Source: Acidovorax sp. T1 (GTDB lineage Bacteria > Pseudomonadota > Gammaproteobacteria > Burkholderiales > Burkholderiaceae_C). From it: a stretch of DNA of 64,000 bases. The translations under genes were made by a program, and so were the position numbers. Positions 2,240 through 37,345 of this stretch are shown here, one piece after another (the first letter of the stretch is position 1; each line of letters begins with the position of its first letter). The stretch is taken from the NCBI RefSeq assembly GCF_002176815.1, contig NZ_CP021648.1, positions 3,108,001 through 3,172,000 on the forward strand, written 5' to 3'. The notes under the pieces are model-generated. The model had not been told where the DNA came from. It did not search any database and worked only from the letters and a program-made list of their open reading frames with translations.

Positions 2240-3202
2240 TCACGCCTCGTTACCGGCAACGATGGACATGACCGCCATGCGCACGGCGATGCCGAAGGTG
2301 ACCTGCGGCAGGATCACGCTCTGCTGGCCATCGACCACGGCGGAGTCGATCTCCACGCCCCGGTTGATGGGGCCGGGGTGCATCACGATGGCGTCGGGCT
2401 TGGCCAGTTGCAGCTTTTCGGGCGTGAGGCCGAAGCTCTTGAAATACTCCTGGCTCGACGGCAGCAGCGCGCCGCTCATGCGCTCGTTCTGCAGGCGCAG
2501 GGTGATGACCACATCGGCGTCCTTGATGCCTTCTTCGAGCGTGTGGCACACGCGCACGCCCATCTGCGCCATGTCGGACGGCACCAGCGTGCGCGGGCCC
2601 ACCACGCGCACTTCGGGGCAGCCCAGGGTGGTCAGGCCATGGATGTCGGAGCGCGCCACGCGCGAGTGCAGCACATCGCCGACGATGGCCACGGTGAGGT
2701 TGCTGAAGTCTTTTTTGTAGTGGCGGATGGTGTACATGTCCAGCAGCCCCTGCGTGGGGTGGGCATGGCGGCCATCGCCAGCGTTGATCACATGCACATG
2801 CGGCGCCACATGCTGGGCAATCAGGTAGGGCGCGCCCGACTCGCTGTGCCGCACCACGAACAGGTCGGCCGCCATGGCCGACAGGTTGGCGATGGTGTCG
2901 AGCAGCGATTCGCCCTTGGATGCCGAGCTGCGCGCGATGTCCAGATTGAACACGTCGGCCGACAGGCGCTTGGCCGCGATCTCGAAGGTGGTGCGGGTGC
3001 GCGTGCTGTTCTCGAAGAACAGGTTGAACACGCTCTTGCCGCGCAGCAGCGGCACCTTCTTGACCTCGCGGTCGTTCACGCTGACGAAGTTGGCGGCGGT
3101 GTCGAGGATGTGCGTGACGATGTCGCGCGGCAGGCCCTCGATGGACAGCAGGTGGATGAGTTCGCCGTTGCCGTTGAGTTGGGGGTTGCGCTGGTGCAGC
3201 AC
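2240..3202 (-). CDS. pyrB: Aspartate carbamoyltransferase catalytic subunit
   Basis: Condenses carbamoyl phosphate with aspartate, the committed step of pyrimidine synthesis, in the cytoplasm. The 320-residue product has the carbamoyl-phosphate loop [11 protein letters not shown] (about 64-74), the [10 protein letters not shown] block (about 142-151) and HPGPINRG near residue 280. The start is a GTG (3200-3202), placed 2 bp after the pyrR stop, so the two genes are probably translationally coupled. No pyrI regulatory subunit is present. Together with the catalytically damaged PyrC' next door, this fits the Pseudomonas-type PyrB/PyrC' class of transcarbamoylase. Confidence 0.97.
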
Positions 3203-13729: not shown

Positions 13730-16018
13730 TCAGGCGATCTTGAAACGTGCTACCGATTGGCGCAGCTCTTCCGCCATGTGCGAAAGTTCGCGCACCTGCT
13801 GTGCCGTTGTGCGAGTGCCTTCGCCTGTCTGCTCAGTCACGGCAAAAATGTGCTGGATGTTGTCTGCCACCTCGTTGGCCAGAACGGCTTCGCGGGATGT
13901 CGAGGACGAAATCTGCTCAATCAGCTCAGCCAGGCGGCGCGACACACGATCAATTTCGGTCAGTGCGGTACCGGCGCTATCGGACAGGCGAGCCCCTTCC
14001 ACCACGCCCTGCGTGGACCGCTCCATAGCTGCCACAGCATCCTGGGTGTCGGTCTGAATCGCTTTCACCAGAGCCGAGATCTGCCGCGTTGCATCAGCCG
14101 AGCGCTCAGCCAGCCGCTGCACTTCTTCGGCCACGACCGAGAATCCTCGGCCCGCATCACCCGCCGATGCAGCCTGAATGGCGGCATTCAGGGCCAGCAC
14201 GTTCGTCTGCTCCGTAATGTCGGAAATCAGCTCGGTAATTTCACCGATCTCCTGCGACGATTCGCCAAGACGCTTGATCCGCTTGGACGTGTCCTGGATC
14301 TGGTCTCGAATCGAGTTCATACCACCGATGGCGTTTTGCACGGCCTGCAAGCCCGAGTCAGCCGCCTGCAGCGACTGACGCGCCACCGTGGCGGACTCCT
14401 GCGCCTGCATGGACACTTCGTTGATTCGGGTCGCCATGTCCAGCACGGACCGGCCGGTTTCATGAATTTCGCGCAACTGCTCGGTGGATGCGGCCAGCAG
14501 TTCGGTGGACGTACTGTCCACCTGGGCTGTCGTCTGTGCCACACGGGTTACGGTGTTTTGAACGCTGCCCACCAGCTGGCGCAACTCTTCCACTGTGTAG
14601 TTCACCGAGTCGGCGATGGCGCCGGTGATGTCTTCCGTCACAGTGGCTTCCTGTGTCAGATCACCCTCGGCAACCGATTGCAGCTCGTTCATCAACCGCA
14701 AAATGGCAGCTTGGTTAGCGTCGTTGACGCGCTTGGCCTCTTGCTCCTGACGCTTTGCATCCTTTTGCTGCACTTCAGCTGCCACCTGACGGCCCCGGCT
14801 GTCCAGCAGTTGCACACGGGAAATACCGATACCGCACAGCAGCACGAACACGCCAGCCAAGGCCAAGGCGGCAAATTGCCCCGCACCCAGGCCCGTCTGC
14901 GAAGAAAGCTTATCCTGCATGCCTTCCAGTTGGCGGCGCAGCGGCTCGCTGTCAGCAATGATCGACGACTGCCCTTCACGTGCGGAAACCAGCCCCTGCA
15001 AGTTGCCCAGAATGGCACTGGCCTGCGTGCGGGTCTGCTCATAGAGCTTGATCAAGCCTTCGAGCTGCTCACGCGTCTGCGCATCTTTGGTGGCGGACAG
15101 CCGCATTTCAGGACTTCCATCGAGCAGCCCCTTGGCAATTTCCTGGAAAGAATTCAAGTCCTTGCCCAGCAAGAACACGGCCTCAGGACTCACACCCTCC
15201 ATGGTCTGGAACTCGTTGGCCGACTTGCCGATGCGTTGGGTCAACATCACCAGCTGGCCAGCCGCTGAAATTTCGGCCGCTGGTGCGTTTTGCTGCAGCT
15301 TGAGCGAAGACACGGTTTCCGCGATCTCCAGCAGATCAGCTGATTGGCGATTGATGGTGCGCAGCGCATCGCCCACCTGCGTCAGAATTTTCTGCTGTCC
15401 CATGACCACTTTGGCGTTACGTTCCGCGCGCTCTACGAGCGGAGTCACACTGTTCAGGTCGGACTCGAACTGTTCGCCAAGGGCCTGCACACCCAGCTCG
15501 CTATCGCCAGTGTTCAGCGCGCGCACATTGCGGGCCAGCACGCCAGAGCTTTCCACCACCTCCGGAAAAGCCTCAGCACTGCCCACCAGTGCCTGCGAAA
15601 CCGACTTGGCAAGCCGCTGCGACTGCATCAGCGACTGACCGGTAGCGGCCAGCTGCTGTGCAGAGCGGTTCGCCTGCTGAAGCACCCAACCCGCAATCAA
15701 TGCCAGCACCACCACACCAACGGCGAGCAATATGAGCAAACGCCGCTGGTGACCGGCCGCCGTGGAACTGCCCAGCAGCGGCAAGGAAATAAGGTCTTCG
15801 TCAGCGGCCGTGGTTGATGGTTCGGACGATGCGCCACCAGGATCACCCTGAACGCTGTTCATGGCATCGGTCTGATAAGAATCACGCAATGCGCTGGCAT
15901 CCATGGAACCCGTCGCCAGGACATTCTGACTATCGTCCACCACATCGGCACCTAGCCCTGTATCTGGTTCCGTGGGCTTGCGATTGAACAGTTTTCCAAA
16001 TTGATTCACAACGGACAT
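13730..16018 (-). CDS. pilJ: Type IV pilus methyl-accepting chemotaxis protein PilJ
   Basis: A 762-residue membrane receptor. It has a cytoplasmic N-terminal tail (1-88) and a first transmembrane helix (about 90-113). A periplasmic PilJ-type module follows, with two similar helical repeats, then a second transmembrane helix (about 385-407, AALALAGVFVLLCGIGIS), a HAMP-like linker and the MCP signalling domain. The MCP hairpin region (EISELISDITEQTNVLALNAAIQAA class) lies near 595-625. It passes signals to ChpA through PilI. It sits 21 bp after pilI and 54 bp before chpA. The long N-terminal cytoplasmic tail fits this family in Burkholderiales. Confidence 0.95.
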   Translation of the reverse strand: MSVVNQFGKLFNRKPTEPDTGLGADVVDDSQNVLATGSMDASALRDSYQTDAMNSVQGDPGGASSEPSTTAADEDLISLPLLGSSTAAGHQRRLLILLAVGVVVLALIAGWVLQQANRSAQQLAATGQSLMQSQRLAKSVSQALVGSAEAFPEVVESSGVLARNVRALNTGDSELGVQALGEQFESDLNSVTPLVERAERNAKVVMGQQKILTQVGDALRTINRQSADLLEIAETVSSLKLQQNAPAAEISAAGQLVMLTQRIGKSANEFQTMEGVSPEAVFLLGKDLNSFQEIAKGLLDGSPEMRLSATKDAQTREQLEGLIKLYEQTRTQASAILGNLQGLVSAREGQSSIIADSEPLRRQLEGMQDKLSSQTGLGAGQFAALALAGVFVLLCGIGISRVQLLDSRGRQVAAEVQQKDAKRQEQEAKRVNDANQAAILRLMNELQSVAEGDLTQEATVTEDITGAIADSVNYTVEELRQLVGSVQNTVTRVAQTTAQVDSTSTELLAASTEQLREIHETGRSVLDMATRINEVSMQAQESATVARQSLQAADSGLQAVQNAIGGMNSIRDQIQDTSKRIKRLGESSQEIGEITELISDITEQTNVLALNAAIQAASAGDAGRGFSVVAEEVQRLAERSADATRQISALVKAIQTDTQDAVAAMERSTQGVVEGARLSDSAGTALTEIDRVSRRLAELIEQISSSTSREAVLANEVADNIQHIFAVTEQTGEGTRTTAQQVRELSHMAEELRQSVARFKIA

Positions 16019-18622: not shown

Positions 18623-19916
18623 CCTCAACATCCCCCTGTTCGAACGCGCCAAGGCGCTCATCCCTGGCGGCGTGAACTCGCCCGTGCGGGCCTTCAAGGC
18701 CGTGGGCGGCACGCCGCGCTTCGTCAAGCGCGCCCAAGGCGCGTATTTCTGGGACGCAAACGACCAGCGCTTCATCGACTACATCGGATCCTGGGGCCCG
18801 ATGATCCTGGGCCACGGGCACCCGGCCGTGCTCGAAGCCGTGCAGAAAGCCGCGCTGGAAGGCTTCAGCTTTGGCGCCCCCACCGAGCGCGAGATCGAGC
18901 TGGCCGAAGAAATCCTGGGCCTGGTGCCCTCCATGGAGATGATCCGGCTGGTCAGCTCGGGCACCGAAGCCGGCATGAGCGCGATTCGCCTGGCGCGCGG
19001 CGCCACCGGCCGCAGCAAGCTCATCAAGTTCGAGGGCTGCTACCACGGCCATGCCGACGCGCTGCTGGTCAAGGCCGGCTCGGGCCTGGCCACCTTTGGC
19101 AATGCCACCAGCGCTGGCGTGCCGCCCGAGGTGGTGCAGCACACCATCGTGCTCGAATACAACAACATCCCGCAGCTCGAAAAAGCCTTCGCCCTGCACG
19201 GCAAGGAACTCGCCTGCCTGATGATCGAGCCCATCGCCGGCAACATGAACTTCGTGCGCGCCAGCGTGCCCTTCATGCGCCGCTGCCGCGAGCTGTGCAC
19301 CGAATATGGCGCGCTGCTGGTCCTGGACGAAGTGATGACCGGCTTTCGCGTGGCCCTGGGCAGCGCACAAAGCCTGTATGCGCAAAGCATCCCGGGCTTC
19401 AAGCCCGACATCACGGTGCTGGGCAAGGTGATCGGCGGCGGCATGCCGCTGGCAGCCTTTGGTGCGTCGCGCGCCATCATGGAAAACCTCGCGCCGCTGG
19501 GCGCCGTGTACCAGGCCGGCACGCTGTCGGGCAACCCGGTGGCCACGGCCTGCGGCCTGGCCACGCTGCGCGAAATCCGAAAACCTGGCTTCTTTGATGC
19601 CCTGTCGGCCCGCACCCGCTCCCTCGCGGATGGCCTGGTTGCCGCCGCAGCCGCCGAAGGTGTGCCCTTCAGTGCCGACTGCGAGGGCGGCATGTTCGGC
19701 TTCTTCCTGCTGCCCCAGCTGCCGCAAAACTACGCACAGGTGCTGAAGACCGACGGCGTGCGCTTCAACCAGCTTTTCCATGGCCTGCTGGACCGCGGCG
19801 TTTACATCGCGCCCGCGCTCTACGAAGCCGGCTTTGTGAGCGCCGCCCACACGGCGCAGGACATTGCCGACACCGTGGCGATTGCCCGCGAGGTGTTCAA
19901 AACGCTCTCAAATTAA
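18606..19916 (+). CDS. hemL: Glutamate-1-semialdehyde 2,1-aminomutase
   Basis: A PLP enzyme making 5-aminolevulinate in the C5 haem pathway. The 436-residue length is normal for the family. Visible blocks are the N-terminal [14 protein letters not shown], the substrate-side [20 protein letters not shown] (about 117-136) and the PLP lysine in [16 protein letters not shown] (about residue 275). It overlaps the 3' end of thiD, so the two are coupled. A strong rho-independent terminator follows at 19981-20016, with a dispersed palindrome between. Confidence 0.96.
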
Positions 19917-33338: not shown

Positions 33339-34433
33339 TCAGACGTTGAACAGGAAATTCAGCACATCGCCGTCTTTCACCACATATTCCTTGCCTTCTG
33401 CGCGCATCTTCCCGGCGTCCTTGGCGCCCTGCTCTCCCTTGTAGGCAATGAAGTCCTCAAAAGCAATGGTCTGCGCGCGGATGAAGCCGCGTTCAAAGTC
33501 GCCGTGGATCACGCCGGCGGCCTGCGGGGCGGTGTCGCCAATGTGGATGGTCCAGGCGCGCACTTCCTTCACGCCGGCGGTGAAATAAGTCTGCAACCCC
33601 AGCAGCTTGAACGCACCACGGATCAGACGGGCCAGGCCGGGCTCGGTCTGGCCCATTTCGGCCAGGAACATGTCGCGGTCTTCGTCGCTCATCTCGGCCA
33701 TTTCGGCTTCCATCTTGGCGCAAATGGCCACCACGGGGGCGTTCTGGCTGGCCGCGTATTCCTTCAGGCGATCGAGGAACGGGTTGTTCTCGAAGCCGTC
33801 TTCACTCACATTGCCCACGAACATCGCCGGTTTGGCGGTGATGAGGCACAGGGACTTGAGCAGGGGCTGCTCTTCCTTGGTGATTTCCACGCTGCGTGCC
33901 GGCTTGCCTTCGTTGAGCGCGGCCTGGATGCGCGTGAGCAGCGCCACCAGCTTGGCGGCGTCCTTGTCGTTGCCCGACTTGGCGGCCTTGGTGTAGCGGT
34001 TGAGCGCCTTCTCGACGGTGCCCATGTCGGCCAGACACAGCTCGGTCTGGATGACCTCGATGTCGGAAATCGGGTCCACCCGGCCCGCGACGTGGATCAC
34101 GTTGTCGTCTTCAAAGCAGCGCACCACATTGACAATGGCGTCGGTTTCGCGGATATGGGCCAGAAACTGGTTGCCCAGGCCTTCGCCCTGGCTGGCGCCA
34201 GCCACCAGGCCGGCAATGTCCACAAATTCAACAATGGCCGGGACGATGCGCTCCGGATGAATGATCTCGGCCAGCTGCTGCAGGCGCGGATCGGGCACTT
34301 CCACCACGCCCACATTGGGCTCAATGGTGCAGAAGGGGTAGTTTTCGGCGGCAATGCCGGCCTTGGTCAGCGCGTTGAAAAGGGTGGACTTGCCGACGTT
34401 GGGCAGGCCCACGATGCCGCATTGGAGGCTCAT
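33339..34433 (-). CDS. ychF: Redox-regulated ATPase YchF (Obg-like)
   Basis: A 364-residue ribosome-associated P-loop ATPase. P-loop GLPNVGKST (about 9-17), the switch II region [19 protein letters not shown], the altered specificity motif that prefers ATP in this family, and the C-terminal TGS domain ending in [12 protein letters not shown]. The start at 34433 gives the standard N-terminus [16 protein letters not shown]. The usual upstream partner pth is absent. Instead, 20 bp before the start, a fragment of another ychF reads in the opposite direction. Confidence 0.97.
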
Positions 34434-34453
34434 GGAAAATCCTTTATGAATCA

Positions 34454-34511
34454 ACCCCTTTCGCACCATCGAGCCCAACACGGGTGTGGTGGAGGTGCCC
34501 GATCCGCGCGT
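34454..34511 (+). pseudogene. ychF fragment A (codons about 34-52), opposite strand
   Basis: Read on the plus strand, this segment encodes [19 protein letters not shown]. The intact YchF has [20 protein letters not shown], residues about 33-52. Several third-position differences show that it is not a recent perfect copy. It begins 20 bp from the real ychF start and points away from it. It continues, in codon order, the fragment at 36341-36422, as if one copy had been broken by an inversion between them. Confidence 0.85.
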
Positions 34512-34599
34512 TTGGCGAATGGCCGGCAATCACAGCGAACCGGGTGTCGGAATCTATGATTTTTGAGGACTTGGTCCTCGTTTTGCCAAGGGGAAACTG
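34512..34599. other. Short non-coding stretch with a small hairpin
   Basis: Holds gaggac-ttg-gtcctc (34565-34579) followed by gtttt, a weak terminator-like hairpin on the plus strand. Nothing else is recognisable. Confidence 0.3.
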
Positions 34600-34770
34600 A
34601 TGCCGATTGTACTGATCAGCGAATCTTTGCTACGTCGAAGCACCGTGGCTGACGGGCGGTTTCTCTGCGACCGCCTGCTATCCGGGTTTTGCATTCAGAT
34701 GCCCAAACGAGCAAAGCCACGGGCGCGCGTCCTCCAGCATTCTGATCTGCCGTCCGGAAAACTGCGATGA
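34600..34770 (+). CDS. Small ORF, possible integrase N-terminal remnant
   Basis: A 56-codon frame from an ATG at 34600. The segment FLCDRLLSGFCIQMPKRAK (21-39) resembles the first strand of the arm-binding domain of tyrosine recombinases (pattern D-x-x-L-x-G-F-x-I-x-V), but the match is short and the frame ends soon after. It lies in the accessory patch between the two ychF fragments, where an integration remnant would be plausible. No recombinase catalytic domain is present nearby. It may equally be a chance frame. Confidence 0.2.
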   Translation: MPIVLISESLLRRSTVADGRFLCDRLLSGFCIQMPKRAKPRARVLQHSDLPSGKLR

Positions 34771-35094
34771 ACAAGCTGGCTAAACGCTAACGCGACTTGC
34801 TGAATCTGGCGCTCTACGCGGGCTTGAGACGCAATGAATGCAGGTCGCCAGGGCGATGTGGAGAGTCCTGAACCACACGCACCCAGGACCGCCGTGCTGC
34901 ACCGTCACTGAGTTGGCTTGGGTGTTGAGGATGGGATGACCACCTCGACAGCGCTTAGTGCGAGCGTGACAAGCCGCCCCACGCGATGGCCAATAGAGGG
35001 CTCCACCTGATAATCTGCCGGGGCCCACCCAGGGACGACCGCCTGCGTGGGTCGAGCCTGCGTGGCAAGCACTACATTCTTTTGGAGAAAAACT
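34771..35094. other. Gap without recognisable gene
   Basis: About 320 bp before the DUF4189 gene. I see no convincing coding frame or repeat. The minus-strand frame over this stretch has no recognisable motif. The promoter of the DUF4189 gene must lie here. Confidence 0.4.
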
Positions 35095-35910
35095 ATGGTC
35101 TCTGCACTGATAACTGTTGTTGCCAGGTTGGCCGTTGGCATGCTGCTGCTTGCGGGCAGCCATGCCATGGCATCGGGCTCCTTGGCCATCGACACCCTAC
35201 AGGGCGAGAAATACGGTTTTTCCTTCAACCACCCCAACATGGATCAGGCCGATCAGCGCGCCTTGCGCGAATGCGGTGCGGACTGTTCCGTCGTGCTGCG
35301 CTTCGCCGGCCAATGCGGCGCCTACGCCGCCGACTTGGCCAAGGGCTCCAACGCCTATGGGTGGGGCACAGGCAACACCAGCTCCAACACCCAGGCGCGG
35401 GCCATGTCGGAATGCCGGGCCAGAGGCGGCTCCAGCTGCAAGGTACGCGCATGGGGCTGCGATGCCAAGGTGTCGTCCACGCCGCAGACCACAACCCTGC
35501 CCCCCGCCCAGGTCGCACGTCCACCCACACCTCAAGATAGCAACAAGGCGACCGCCGGCGGCTTCCCCCTGCTGGGCGAGTGGTTGGTGGACTATGTGTC
35601 CCAGACCAGCTACACCGCCACCGGCACTTTGCGCGTGACAGAGAGCCTGGGCAATGACAGCTTTCGCGGGGTGCTGGTGCTGGCCTATGTCGCTACATCG
35701 GGCGAGTCCAAACGGGTGCAGCAGGACGCGACCATCACCGTACGGGGCGACACCGTGACCGTCAACGCCAGCAACCCGGTCTACCTGCTGGGATCCGGGG
35801 TGTACTACCCCGACAACTACACCCTCGTCATCGCCAGCCCCAACCTGATGCGTGGTCAAAACTCCGACGCAAAGGGTTTGAGCGGCGCCGTGGTGATCAG
35901 CAGGAAGTAG
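35095..35910 (+). CDS. Exported DUF4189-domain protein with a second C-terminal domain
   Basis: A 271-residue secreted protein. The signal peptide covers about 1-27 (ends SHAMASG). Residues 38-122 match DUF4189: CGADCSVVLRFAGQCGAYAAD, then YGWGTGNTSSNTQARAMSEC and CKVRAWGC, with paired cysteines likely forming disulfides. After a Thr/Pro linker, residues 155-271 form a probable beta-barrel domain starting with LLGEWLVDYV, which I do not recognise. The ATG at 35095 has GGAG 10 bp upstream. The gene stands alone inside the ychF-bounded rearranged patch. DUF4189 function is unknown, though it occurs in secreted bacterial and mycobacterial proteins. Confidence 0.75.
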   Translation: MVSALITVVARLAVGMLLLAGSHAMASGSLAIDTLQGEKYGFSFNHPNMDQADQRALRECGADCSVVLRFAGQCGAYAADLAKGSNAYGWGTGNTSSNTQARAMSECRARGGSSCKVRAWGCDAKVSSTPQTTTLPPAQVARPPTPQDSNKATAGGFPLLGEWLVDYVSQTSYTATGTLRVTESLGNDSFRGVLVLAYVATSGESKRVQQDATITVRGDTVTVNASNPVYLLGSGVYYPDNYTLVIASPNLMRGQNSDAKGLSGAVVISRK

Positions 35911-36340
35911 CACCCGCCGCTTACCTCGGTTTACGGCCTGGCGGGACAGCATGACAGACACGAGCACCTGAGGGCCTGCGCCCCGCCGGACCACGACTCC
36001 GCACAGTGGGGCAAACGCCTGCGCGCTGCTCCCCCCTTTGCTGCGAGATCAACAGCGATAGGGCCAGCTTCGCCGATCTGCAGCCCTCGGACGACTTATA
36101 GGCCGCGTCGAAAGCGGCCGAAGAAATTAGCGGCTGTCCTGATGGACTACTTTCACGCATAAAGCAAATAGTCTTGCCCGCCTGCTCCAGCACATCACTC
36201 GGCTACGCCCCGCCTGCACTGCGACCGACAACGGCCATCGTAGGATGGCCTTTGTGGTTCTCCGCATTTTTGTCCTGGCTTTGTATGCCGCGCCCTGAAA
36301 GCGCGTGATCCTGCTGGGGTCCTCAGCCCATCCTGCCTGC
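35911..36340. other. Gap without recognisable gene
   Basis: About 430 bp between the DUF4189 gene and the second ychF fragment. Short minus-strand frames exist (for example 36127-36360), but none shows a domain or conserved motif. Base composition looks less GC-biased at third positions than in surrounding genes, consistent with decayed or non-coding DNA. Confidence 0.4.
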
Positions 36341-36422
36341 GAGATACTTTTCGGCGGCAATGCCGGCCTTAGTCAGGGCGTTGAAAAGGGTGGCCTTGCC
36401 GAGGTTGCCCCATTGGAGGCTC
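36341..36422 (-). pseudogene. ychF fragment B (start region, codons 2-35)
   Basis: The minus strand from 36422 reads [20 protein letters not shown] and IAAEKYL. The intact YchF start is [33 protein letters not shown]. The start codon is changed (ATG to AAG), and a 15-bp deletion removes five residues of the P-loop, so it cannot be functional. The match fades just after AAEKY, where fragment A at 34454 takes up the sequence on the other strand. Confidence 0.88.
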
Positions 36423-36475
36423 TTGGCAGGACTTTCTGGTTTTCTTTACGGACCTGGGGGCAAAGCCCCCTCCGT

Positions 36476-37345
36476 TCATTTGAAAGGCACATCCGCCGCA
36501 ATGGACTGGCCCACCCGCAGCACCTGCCCGGCCCCCTGCCGCACGATGGCATTCATGCCGAAGGTGACGGCGCCGCCCAGGCGCTCGTCCTGCCGGTAGG
36601 TCTGCAGGGTGTCGGCCACAGCCGGGCTGCTTTGTGCGGTGGCCGGATCGATATTGGGGATGGGGCAGCGCGAACAGGGCTTGACGGGCTGCAAATGCAC
36701 CTCGTGCCCCCCAGCATCCACACGCACCATGTCCACACGGTCTTCATCGTGCGCCCCGAAGCCCGCCAGCACCACATTGGGCCGAAAACGCTCCATACCC
36801 ACCCCCTCCTGCCCGGTGGCCGCCAGCCGTGCATTCAGCTCCGCCAGCGATGCCTCGCTGGTCACGAGCAGCGGAAACGCGTCCGCAAACTGATTGGGCG
36901 CCTCCACCCCCTCGGTCCAGTCCATGCTCGACAGGCGGCGGTAATCCGGATCAAACCGCACCAGGCTGCAGGGCTGCCCCAGAAAATCGCTGAACCATTG
37001 TGCAGCCAGTGGGCCCATGTCCCAGGCGGGCACGGTGTCCTCCCATACCGTGACGGTGGCGGGGCCTTCCACGGCATCGATGGCCACATGCAGCGCCAGC
37101 ATGCCCGGCGCGCGCAGCACCAGTTCCGAGGTTTTGAGCTGGGGGCGGATCAGCGCCATGCGAGGCAATGTGCGCTGGGTCAAAAACACGCCCTCTGCAT
37201 CGACCACCATCCAGGCACGGTCCAGATCCAGGCCCGTATCGGTGAGCAGAGCCTCTTGCACCGCGATGCCCGCGCAGGACTTGACCGGGTACACAAACAA
37301 GCGCGAGATCGTGCCGGACAGATCGGAATCAGGAAGGGAAGTCAC
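36476..37345 (-). CDS. MOSC domain protein (YcbX-like)
   Basis: A 289-residue protein with the MOSC N-terminal beta-barrel domain (LFVYPVKSCAG, about 16-26) and the MOSC domain. The MOSC cysteine motif is VKPCSRCPIPNIDP (about 219-232), where the conserved cysteine would bind the molybdenum cofactor. E. coli YcbX, of this build, reduces N-hydroxylated bases together with a ferredoxin; this protein has no C-terminal 2Fe-2S domain, so it would need a separate electron donor. The start is GTG at 37343-37345. It diverges from the FAD monooxygenase gene. Confidence 0.87.
   Translation of the reverse strand: MTSLPDSDLSGTISRLFVYPVKSCAGIAVQEALLTDTGLDLDRAWMVVDAEGVFLTQRTLPRMALIRPQLKTSELVLRAPGMLALHVAIDAVEGPATVTVWEDTVPAWDMGPLAAQWFSDFLGQPCSLVRFDPDYRRLSSMDWTEGVEAPNQFADAFPLLVTSEASLAELNARLAATGQEGVGMERFRPNVVLAGFGAHDEDRVDMVRVDAGGHEVHLQPVKPCSRCPIPNIDPATAQSSPAVADTLQTYRQDERLGGAVTFGMNAIVRQGAGQVLRVGQSIAADVPFK

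Follow-up and report, generated by a model that had tools for sequence, protein, structure and literature searches.

A probable relic of a small integrative element at the 5′ coding end of ychF in Acidovorax sp. T1

The ychF locus and its second gene start

The gene ychF codes for a conserved GTPase, and in Acidovorax sp. T1 it lies within the stretch of 64,000 nucleotides analysed here (the window; contig NZ_CP021648.1, positions 3,108,001 to 3,172,000). Next to the intact gene the window holds two partial copies of the gene start, a broken integrase gene, one intact gene of another kind and a MOSC-domain gene, laid out as follows in window positions.

33339–34433, minus strand: intact ychF (Pfam YchF-GTPase_C and MMR_HSR1)
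34434–34453, minus: new ychF leader with a ribosome-binding site, of the type found at element-bearing loci of other genera
34454–34509, plus: fragment B, an inverted copy of ychF nt 95–150 (codons 32–50)
34565–34587, plus: conserved-looking stretch between fragment B and the integrase, candidate left arm-type repeats (seen by eye in the leaders)
34600–34932, plus: broken tyrosine integrase with internal deletions and in-frame stops (tblastn of the L078 protein)
34606–34611, minus: TACAAT, candidate −10 box of a new ychF promoter
35095–35910, plus: intact DUF4189 gene (Pfam PF13827, E 6e-20)
36266–36284, plus: candidate right-end arm motif (TTTTGTCCTGG at 36268)
36345–36422, minus: fragment A, the displaced and decayed original 5′ end of ychF (attR side)
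36423–36475, minus: original ychF leader, partly deleted, aligning with the ychF leader of MOSC-linked relatives
36476–37345, minus: MOSC-domain gene, native upstream neighbour of ychF (Pfam MOSC and MOSC_N)

Fragment A lies approximately 1.9 kb upstream of the intact ychF in direct orientation and is 92% identical to it over 63 nt (36345–36407). A gapped alignment extends the match from around the ATG to roughly codon 33; the P-loop region lacks 15 nt and the start codon is altered, which confirms the P-loop deletion and lost start that a sequence-only reading of the window had described. Fragment B stands directly upstream of the intact start and is identical to inverted ychF at 48 of 56 positions. 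It had correctly been recognised as a coding piece of the gene, although the residue numbers assigned to it (34–52) were about two too high. In ychF coordinates the two fragments abut with an overlap of about 1 nt, in line with the continuous YchF N-terminus that had been described. Searched against the whole genome, they give E values of 1.1e-19 (A) and 8.8e-12 (B), the best matches after ychF itself, and fragment B scores 72 against a maximum of 22 among 200 shuffles. Chance similarity, the outcome that the sequence-only reading had set against itself, is ruled out by these E values and shuffles, and the presence of a second, two-piece ychF start region is borne out. Over nt 104–143 fragment B agrees with the ychF of a Hydrogenophaga (L139) at 38 of 40 positions and with that of its own genome at 34 of 40; the silent differences noted earlier are real, and the extra copy is not a very recent duplicate.

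The intact gene had also been said to lack its usual neighbour pth, consistent with a rearranged locus. This is correct as an observation, pth being found at 875 kb of contig C1 and ychF at 3,141–3,142 kb. As a sign of rearrangement it fails, since in 16 of 20 relatives ychF follows a MOSC gene and pth lies elsewhere. The genus has 46 other genomes, and the 20 relatives are those of them in which 19–20 kb around ychF were examined. In the 16, MOSC is directly upstream of ychF with 87–118 nt between aligned ends, compared with approximately 2 kb in the window, and in the other 4 it is absent from that place. That the window's ychF locus is altered was rightly seen.

The 16 MOSC-linked relatives share one type of ychF leader. 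The leader before fragment A aligns with it apart from a deletion, whereas the leader of the intact window gene is unlike it. Comparison of the leaders thus identifies fragment A as the displaced native start of ychF, still beside MOSC with its old leader, and not as a stray copy. The intact ychF would then owe its first ~31–33 codons and its new leader to an incoming element (attL side), and the rest of the gene would be native. Apart from two matches of 26 and 34 nt, the DNA between the fragments (34512–36340) has no counterpart in the other 46 genus genomes. The window has a displaced 5′ end beside the native neighbour, and its relatives have the gene uninterrupted; L098, from the genus of L081, likewise has an empty site with MOSC and the native leader. 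Four genus members without MOSC beside ychF (L052, L054, L055 and L057) have a different ychF leader. When these were checked for element remains, the best match to fragment B was 19–22 of 40 and no integrase match was found.

An integrase family at ychF

A tblastn of an intact relative, the L078 integrase (open frame of 381 aa with Phage_integrase and Arm-DNA-bind_3 domains), against the whole window gave collinear pieces of residues 1–39 (69% identical, E 2e-10), 191–212 and 211–239 (E 5e-8), and 341–358, the last weak when taken alone (E 0.07). One stop falls inside the relic and another where the predicted catalytic tyrosine would stand, and the window integrase is dead. Pfam and PHROGs did not recognise the relic pieces alone. 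Against 399 genomes of the family, the insert has matches in 47, its own included and many of them short. Nineteen other loci were read from this search, 14 of which have a full ychF directly beside the match, and in these the match falls on the beginning of a tyrosine integrase gene that points away from ychF. Open integrase frames of 361–416 aa were found in 22 loci, which were chosen by the authors and are not every such locus. Six aligned integrases share invariant R234, H313, R316, H339 and Y351, which we take to be the catalytic residues.

A scan of genome contigs with the six aligned integrases returned 34 loci, and ychF sequence stands beside the integrase in 31 of these relatives. In L139 the integrase is about 1.3 kb from ychF, and in L117 and L118 only the first ychF codons lie beside it. 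The relatives without ychF are L133 (Thiomonas), L137 (a contig-end piece) and L143 (25% identical). Among 399 genomes of the order, the integrase was found at E ≤ 1e-30 in 5, in all 5 at ychF. Host genera include Comamonas, Curvibacter, Hydrogenophaga, Limnohabitans, Polaromonas and Rhodoferax, and further Burkholderia, Duganella, Limnobacter, Gallionella and Sideroxydans, with several of the loci coming from metagenome bins. A tyrosine integrase beside a restored gene end is the arrangement found, in the window as a relic.

Some loci depart from it. In Thiomonas sp. FB-6, L133 10001–10843 and L092 2268–3110 are the same piece of one contig, a partial integrase (residues 96–377, 61% identical) beside which the stretches read show no ychF; the family may thus not be confined to ychF and perhaps has another target there. 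A distant integrase (35–36% identical) lies at the 5′ end of ychF in L108 and L138, where fragment B is absent and the leaders are near-identical. A second integrase piece follows ~1.2–2.1 kb past the end of the first match in L113 (13264–13416), L134 (5161–5361) and L135 (11940–12101), perhaps from a stacked element. L117 2152–2346 consists of ychF codons 1–33, fragment B and integrase with the rest of ychF absent, possibly the junction of two tandem elements. The 7101-bp contig of L118 has both ends inside ychF codons 16–17, with an overlap of 8 nt by eye and none of 11–400 nt by script; the contig may represent a circle, or the assembly may have broken in the repeat.

Ten loci, among them the window, allowed both ends to be aligned, and all ten carry direct repeats of ychF that start near the start codon and end at nt 92–107. 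Seven elements have an open integrase frame and both ends in the same order (L078, L081, L090, which is the same as L121, L115, L122, L128 and L130), and their repeats reach nt 99–104. The repeats are perfect in L078 (94/94), L081 (104/104) and L115 (93/93), near-perfect in L128 (114/115) and L130 (106/112), and more diverged in L121 (116/127) and L122 (127/144); further repeats are those of L140 (116/126) and L080 (82/99). In the window the repeat covers nt 33–92 only (56/60) and the copy is heavily decayed, which counts against reading it as an element, as does the lack of a detectable displaced ychF start in six remnants that have MOSC in reach (L079, L082, L083, L084, L085 and L091). The seven elements span 10.5, 10.4, 9.6, 9.3, 7.0, 6.5 and 5.1 kb. 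Shorter are L140, which has a truncated integrase (3.7 kb), the window (2.0 kb) and L080 (1.3 kb). In L121 (Comamonas testosteroni, 14880–15712) and L122 (Comamonas avium, 19011–19746) the displaced ychF start has a leader of the element type, and a second, older remnant apparently lies between it and MOSC.

The cargo was scanned in part of the open reading frames of L078, L081, L090, L113, L115, L116, L122, L128 and L130 and in one of L140, 38 proteins in all; no far end was located for L113 and L116, and their cargo was assigned by nearness. A serine resolvase is present in 7 of the 9 partly scanned elements (not recognised in L113 and L128) and a defence-type match in 6 of the 9, including a complete type I restriction-modification set in L081. 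PADLOC, run on proteins from neither L090 nor L128, matched 8 of 10 proteins tested, some weakly, in L078, L113, L115, L116 and L122, and none from L130 and L140. No phage structural or packaging gene and no conjugation gene was recognised by Pfam among the 38 proteins, a cargo unlike that of a prophage or phage satellite. The window insert has no plasmid match and the integrase no plasmid relative at E ≤ 1e-30, which speaks against a plasmid origin. A phage origin is set aside likewise, as the integrase has no relative in viral contigs and the phage search returned integrases only 22% identical, in 3 Moraxella phages. What the window keeps is the DUF4189 gene, the only match of its kind in the genome at E ≤ 0.001, with 77–78% DNA matches in two other genomes outside the genus (L059 and L060), where no ychF was found in the ~3.5 kb read. 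It is either cargo or a later passenger.

The leaders contain several candidate motifs. TACAAT or TATAAT, reading toward ychF, occurs 156–183 nt upstream in 36 of 37 leaders, that is, in 15 of 15 classed by us as integrase-dead and 21 of 22 classed as integrase-intact. As 12 of the 15 integrase-dead leaders (the window among them) were not found independently of DNA matches to this region, the sample is biased and retention of the motif was set aside as proof of a new promoter. A scan of the window for the sigma-70 consensus called no promoter. A gene whose start has been replaced must still be transcribed, and a new ychF promoter is what we infer. A hairpin beside the integrase was rejected as a terminator, since the scan did not call it and relatives have two repeats at that place, which are candidate arm sites. 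At the other end, TTTTGTCCTGG also occurs near the right end of L078 (15262), and a search of the right ends of L081, L115, L121, L122, L128 and L130 did not find the exact pattern.

Origin of the locus and of its inverted copy

Compared across genomes, the target, the direct repeats, the displaced start, the empty sites, the integrase homology and the recurrence of fragment B point to one reading: the locus is very probably what remains of a small integrative element, a genomic island belonging to a family with a tyrosine integrase that targets the 5′ coding end of ychF. The integrase would insert the element near codons 31–35. The element would carry its own leader and ychF codons 1 to ~33, so that recombination with the chromosomal site would yield an intact ychF with an element-supplied leader at one end, and the original start and leader would be pushed to the far end beside MOSC, decaying there. 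Fragment B would be part of the left end of the element, an inverted copy of ychF just past the crossover. In the window the integrase is broken and little of the element is left, next to a DUF4189 gene. Actual integration and excision are events that we infer from these arrangements. No excised circle was seen, and this counts against the reading, as do the relatives whose integrase has no ychF beside it, the silence of Pfam and PHROGs on the isolated relic pieces and a right-end motif that has an exact match only in L078.

Foreign DNA with a ychF start could also have entered by a plain single crossover (Campbell type) or by illegitimate insertion, with no dedicated recombinase, and would likewise leave a truncated and an intact ychF around it. 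We consider this very unlikely, as a related integrase stands beside ychF in many genera, all ten loci with both ends have repeats that stop within one narrow stretch, and the window itself contains an integrase relic.

The sequence-only reading had instead assumed a partial ychF duplicate split by a 1.9-kb inversion, which would explain why the fragments abut in ychF coordinates in opposite orientation. Such an inversion is needless and highly improbable: the inverted fragment is not peculiar to the window and recurs in 33–35 of 42 non-redundant leaders from many genera, also in complete elements of 5–10 kb with other contents, and abutment is expected if both fragments end at the crossover, given that the direct repeats end at nt 92–107 and fragment B starts at nt 87–104.

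The counts for fragment B derive from 53 loci, of which 5 without a usable ychF start were left out. In 38 of the remaining 48 leaders it scores above the best of 200 shuffles, and after 6 near-identical leaders were dropped it is present in 33 of 42, window included, or in 35 at a threshold of 26/40. It recurs on the integrase side and similarly far from the start of ychF, in many genera and in elements of other sizes and contents, and because of this recurrence we conclude that it came with the element. In the 38 positive leaders it starts at ychF nt 87–104, close to the end of the direct repeats, and its far end is ragged, falling at nt 134–160.

Fragment B resembles the ychF of its own host (33.3 of 40 on average) more than that of others (30.5 of 40; permutation p 1e-4; Mantel r 0.28, p 2e-4). 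In the 17 loci that combine fragment B with an open integrase frame, the divergence of the fragment tracks that of host ychF (partial Mantel r 0.36, p 0.0016) and does not track that of the integrase (r 0.01, p 0.47). The ychF of some other host is nevertheless the better match in 24 of 35 loci, the window among them, and renewal from the host can for this reason not be constant.

Two explanations of fragment B have to be weighed. It could be a by-product, recopied from host ychF beside the crossover, for instance by aborted strand exchange or by template switching between inverted repeats. A start near the crossover with a ragged far end, the closer average match to the host's own ychF and the divergence that follows ychF and not the integrase are all consistent with this. 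The 24 of 35 loci in which a foreign ychF fits better argue against it, and selection for pairing would yield the same pattern; we regard the chances of this explanation as about even. Fragment B could also be a functional mirror of the attachment site, kept by selection for integrase binding or for control of int or ychF through a hairpin. Its presence in 17 of 22 open-integrase loci at the 26/40 threshold and its tracking of host ychF would fit, as would the very strong hairpin predicted around the ychF start in a transcript through fragment B (−178.8 kcal/mol, compared with a mean of −123.1 for 100 shuffles; z −10.4). The inverted repeat by itself entails this hairpin, which does not prove that it is used. 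Five of the 22 loci lack fragment B, a sixth (L120, 26/40) is not above shuffles, and neither are the remnants L084, L091 and L096. A functional role is quite possible, with our judgement leaning slightly against it.

More tentatively, and with some doubt, we suggest that the islands keep a mirror of their host's half of the attachment site beside the integrase and renew it from the ychF of each new host as they move, the host imprint being written by the integrase reaction or by selection for pairing. If true, a host imprint carried in the element may set integration, excision or ychF expression.

Significance and known systems

ychF is listed as a species-tree marker (PMC13046425). In beta-proteobacteria it is a recurring landing site for small islands, several of them with defence-type genes, and each landing would replace the coding start and leader of ychF and presumably its promoter. 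Remnants such as that in the window are easily misread as duplications or inversions, and the host-tracking mirror copy poses a testable question of how integrases meet their targets. The window itself holds a dead copy, and the family behind it is of moderate interest.

Integrases that replace the start of a core gene are known from SXT/R391 ICEs, large conjugative elements that insert in the 5′ end of prfC. Unlike these, the ychF elements have no recognised conjugation gene among their 38 scanned cargo proteins. Among the matches listed, the open-access literature on ychF together with an integrase or site describes no islands inside the ychF of beta-proteobacteria. In Streptococcus pneumoniae, the DNA upstream of ychF is the integration site of a prophage and of a satellite prophage, and the promoter region of the gene is altered (PMC6375853, PMC10383233). 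The ychF islands are like these in that their integration would alter the promoter region of the gene. The pneumococcal case, for which a circular form was shown (PMC6375853, PMC10383233), differs in its place upstream of the gene and not inside the coding start, in its 14-bp or 26-bp att and in its hosts, which are Firmicutes.

The closest parallel is that of the dusA islands, which use a family of integrases that target the 5′ end of a single housekeeping gene, supply a new 5′ end, rejoin the original one on excision and are flanked by imperfect direct repeats, with a 21-bp att consensus, 48 of 94 being prophages and a cargo that includes restriction-modification (Farrugia et al. 2015, PMC4482086). 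An integrase at the 5′ end, a new gene start supplied by the element, direct repeats and restriction-modification cargo are common to both (PMC4482086). The ychF integrases do not belong to the dusA family proper, which inserts in dusA or dusB, as 31 of 34 relatives and the window relic are at ychF; their direct repeat takes in the greater part of codons 1–33, in contrast to the 21-bp att. Unlike a group in which 48 of 94 are prophages, the ychF integrase has neither plasmid (E ≤ 1e-30) nor viral-contig relatives and reaches only 22% identity in 3 phages. An inverted copy of the target is found in the ychF elements, and the word ‘inverted’ is absent from the text of the dusA paper (PMC4482086). 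The ychF islands hence resemble the dusA islands in kind, and their unusual feature is the host-tracking mirror copy.
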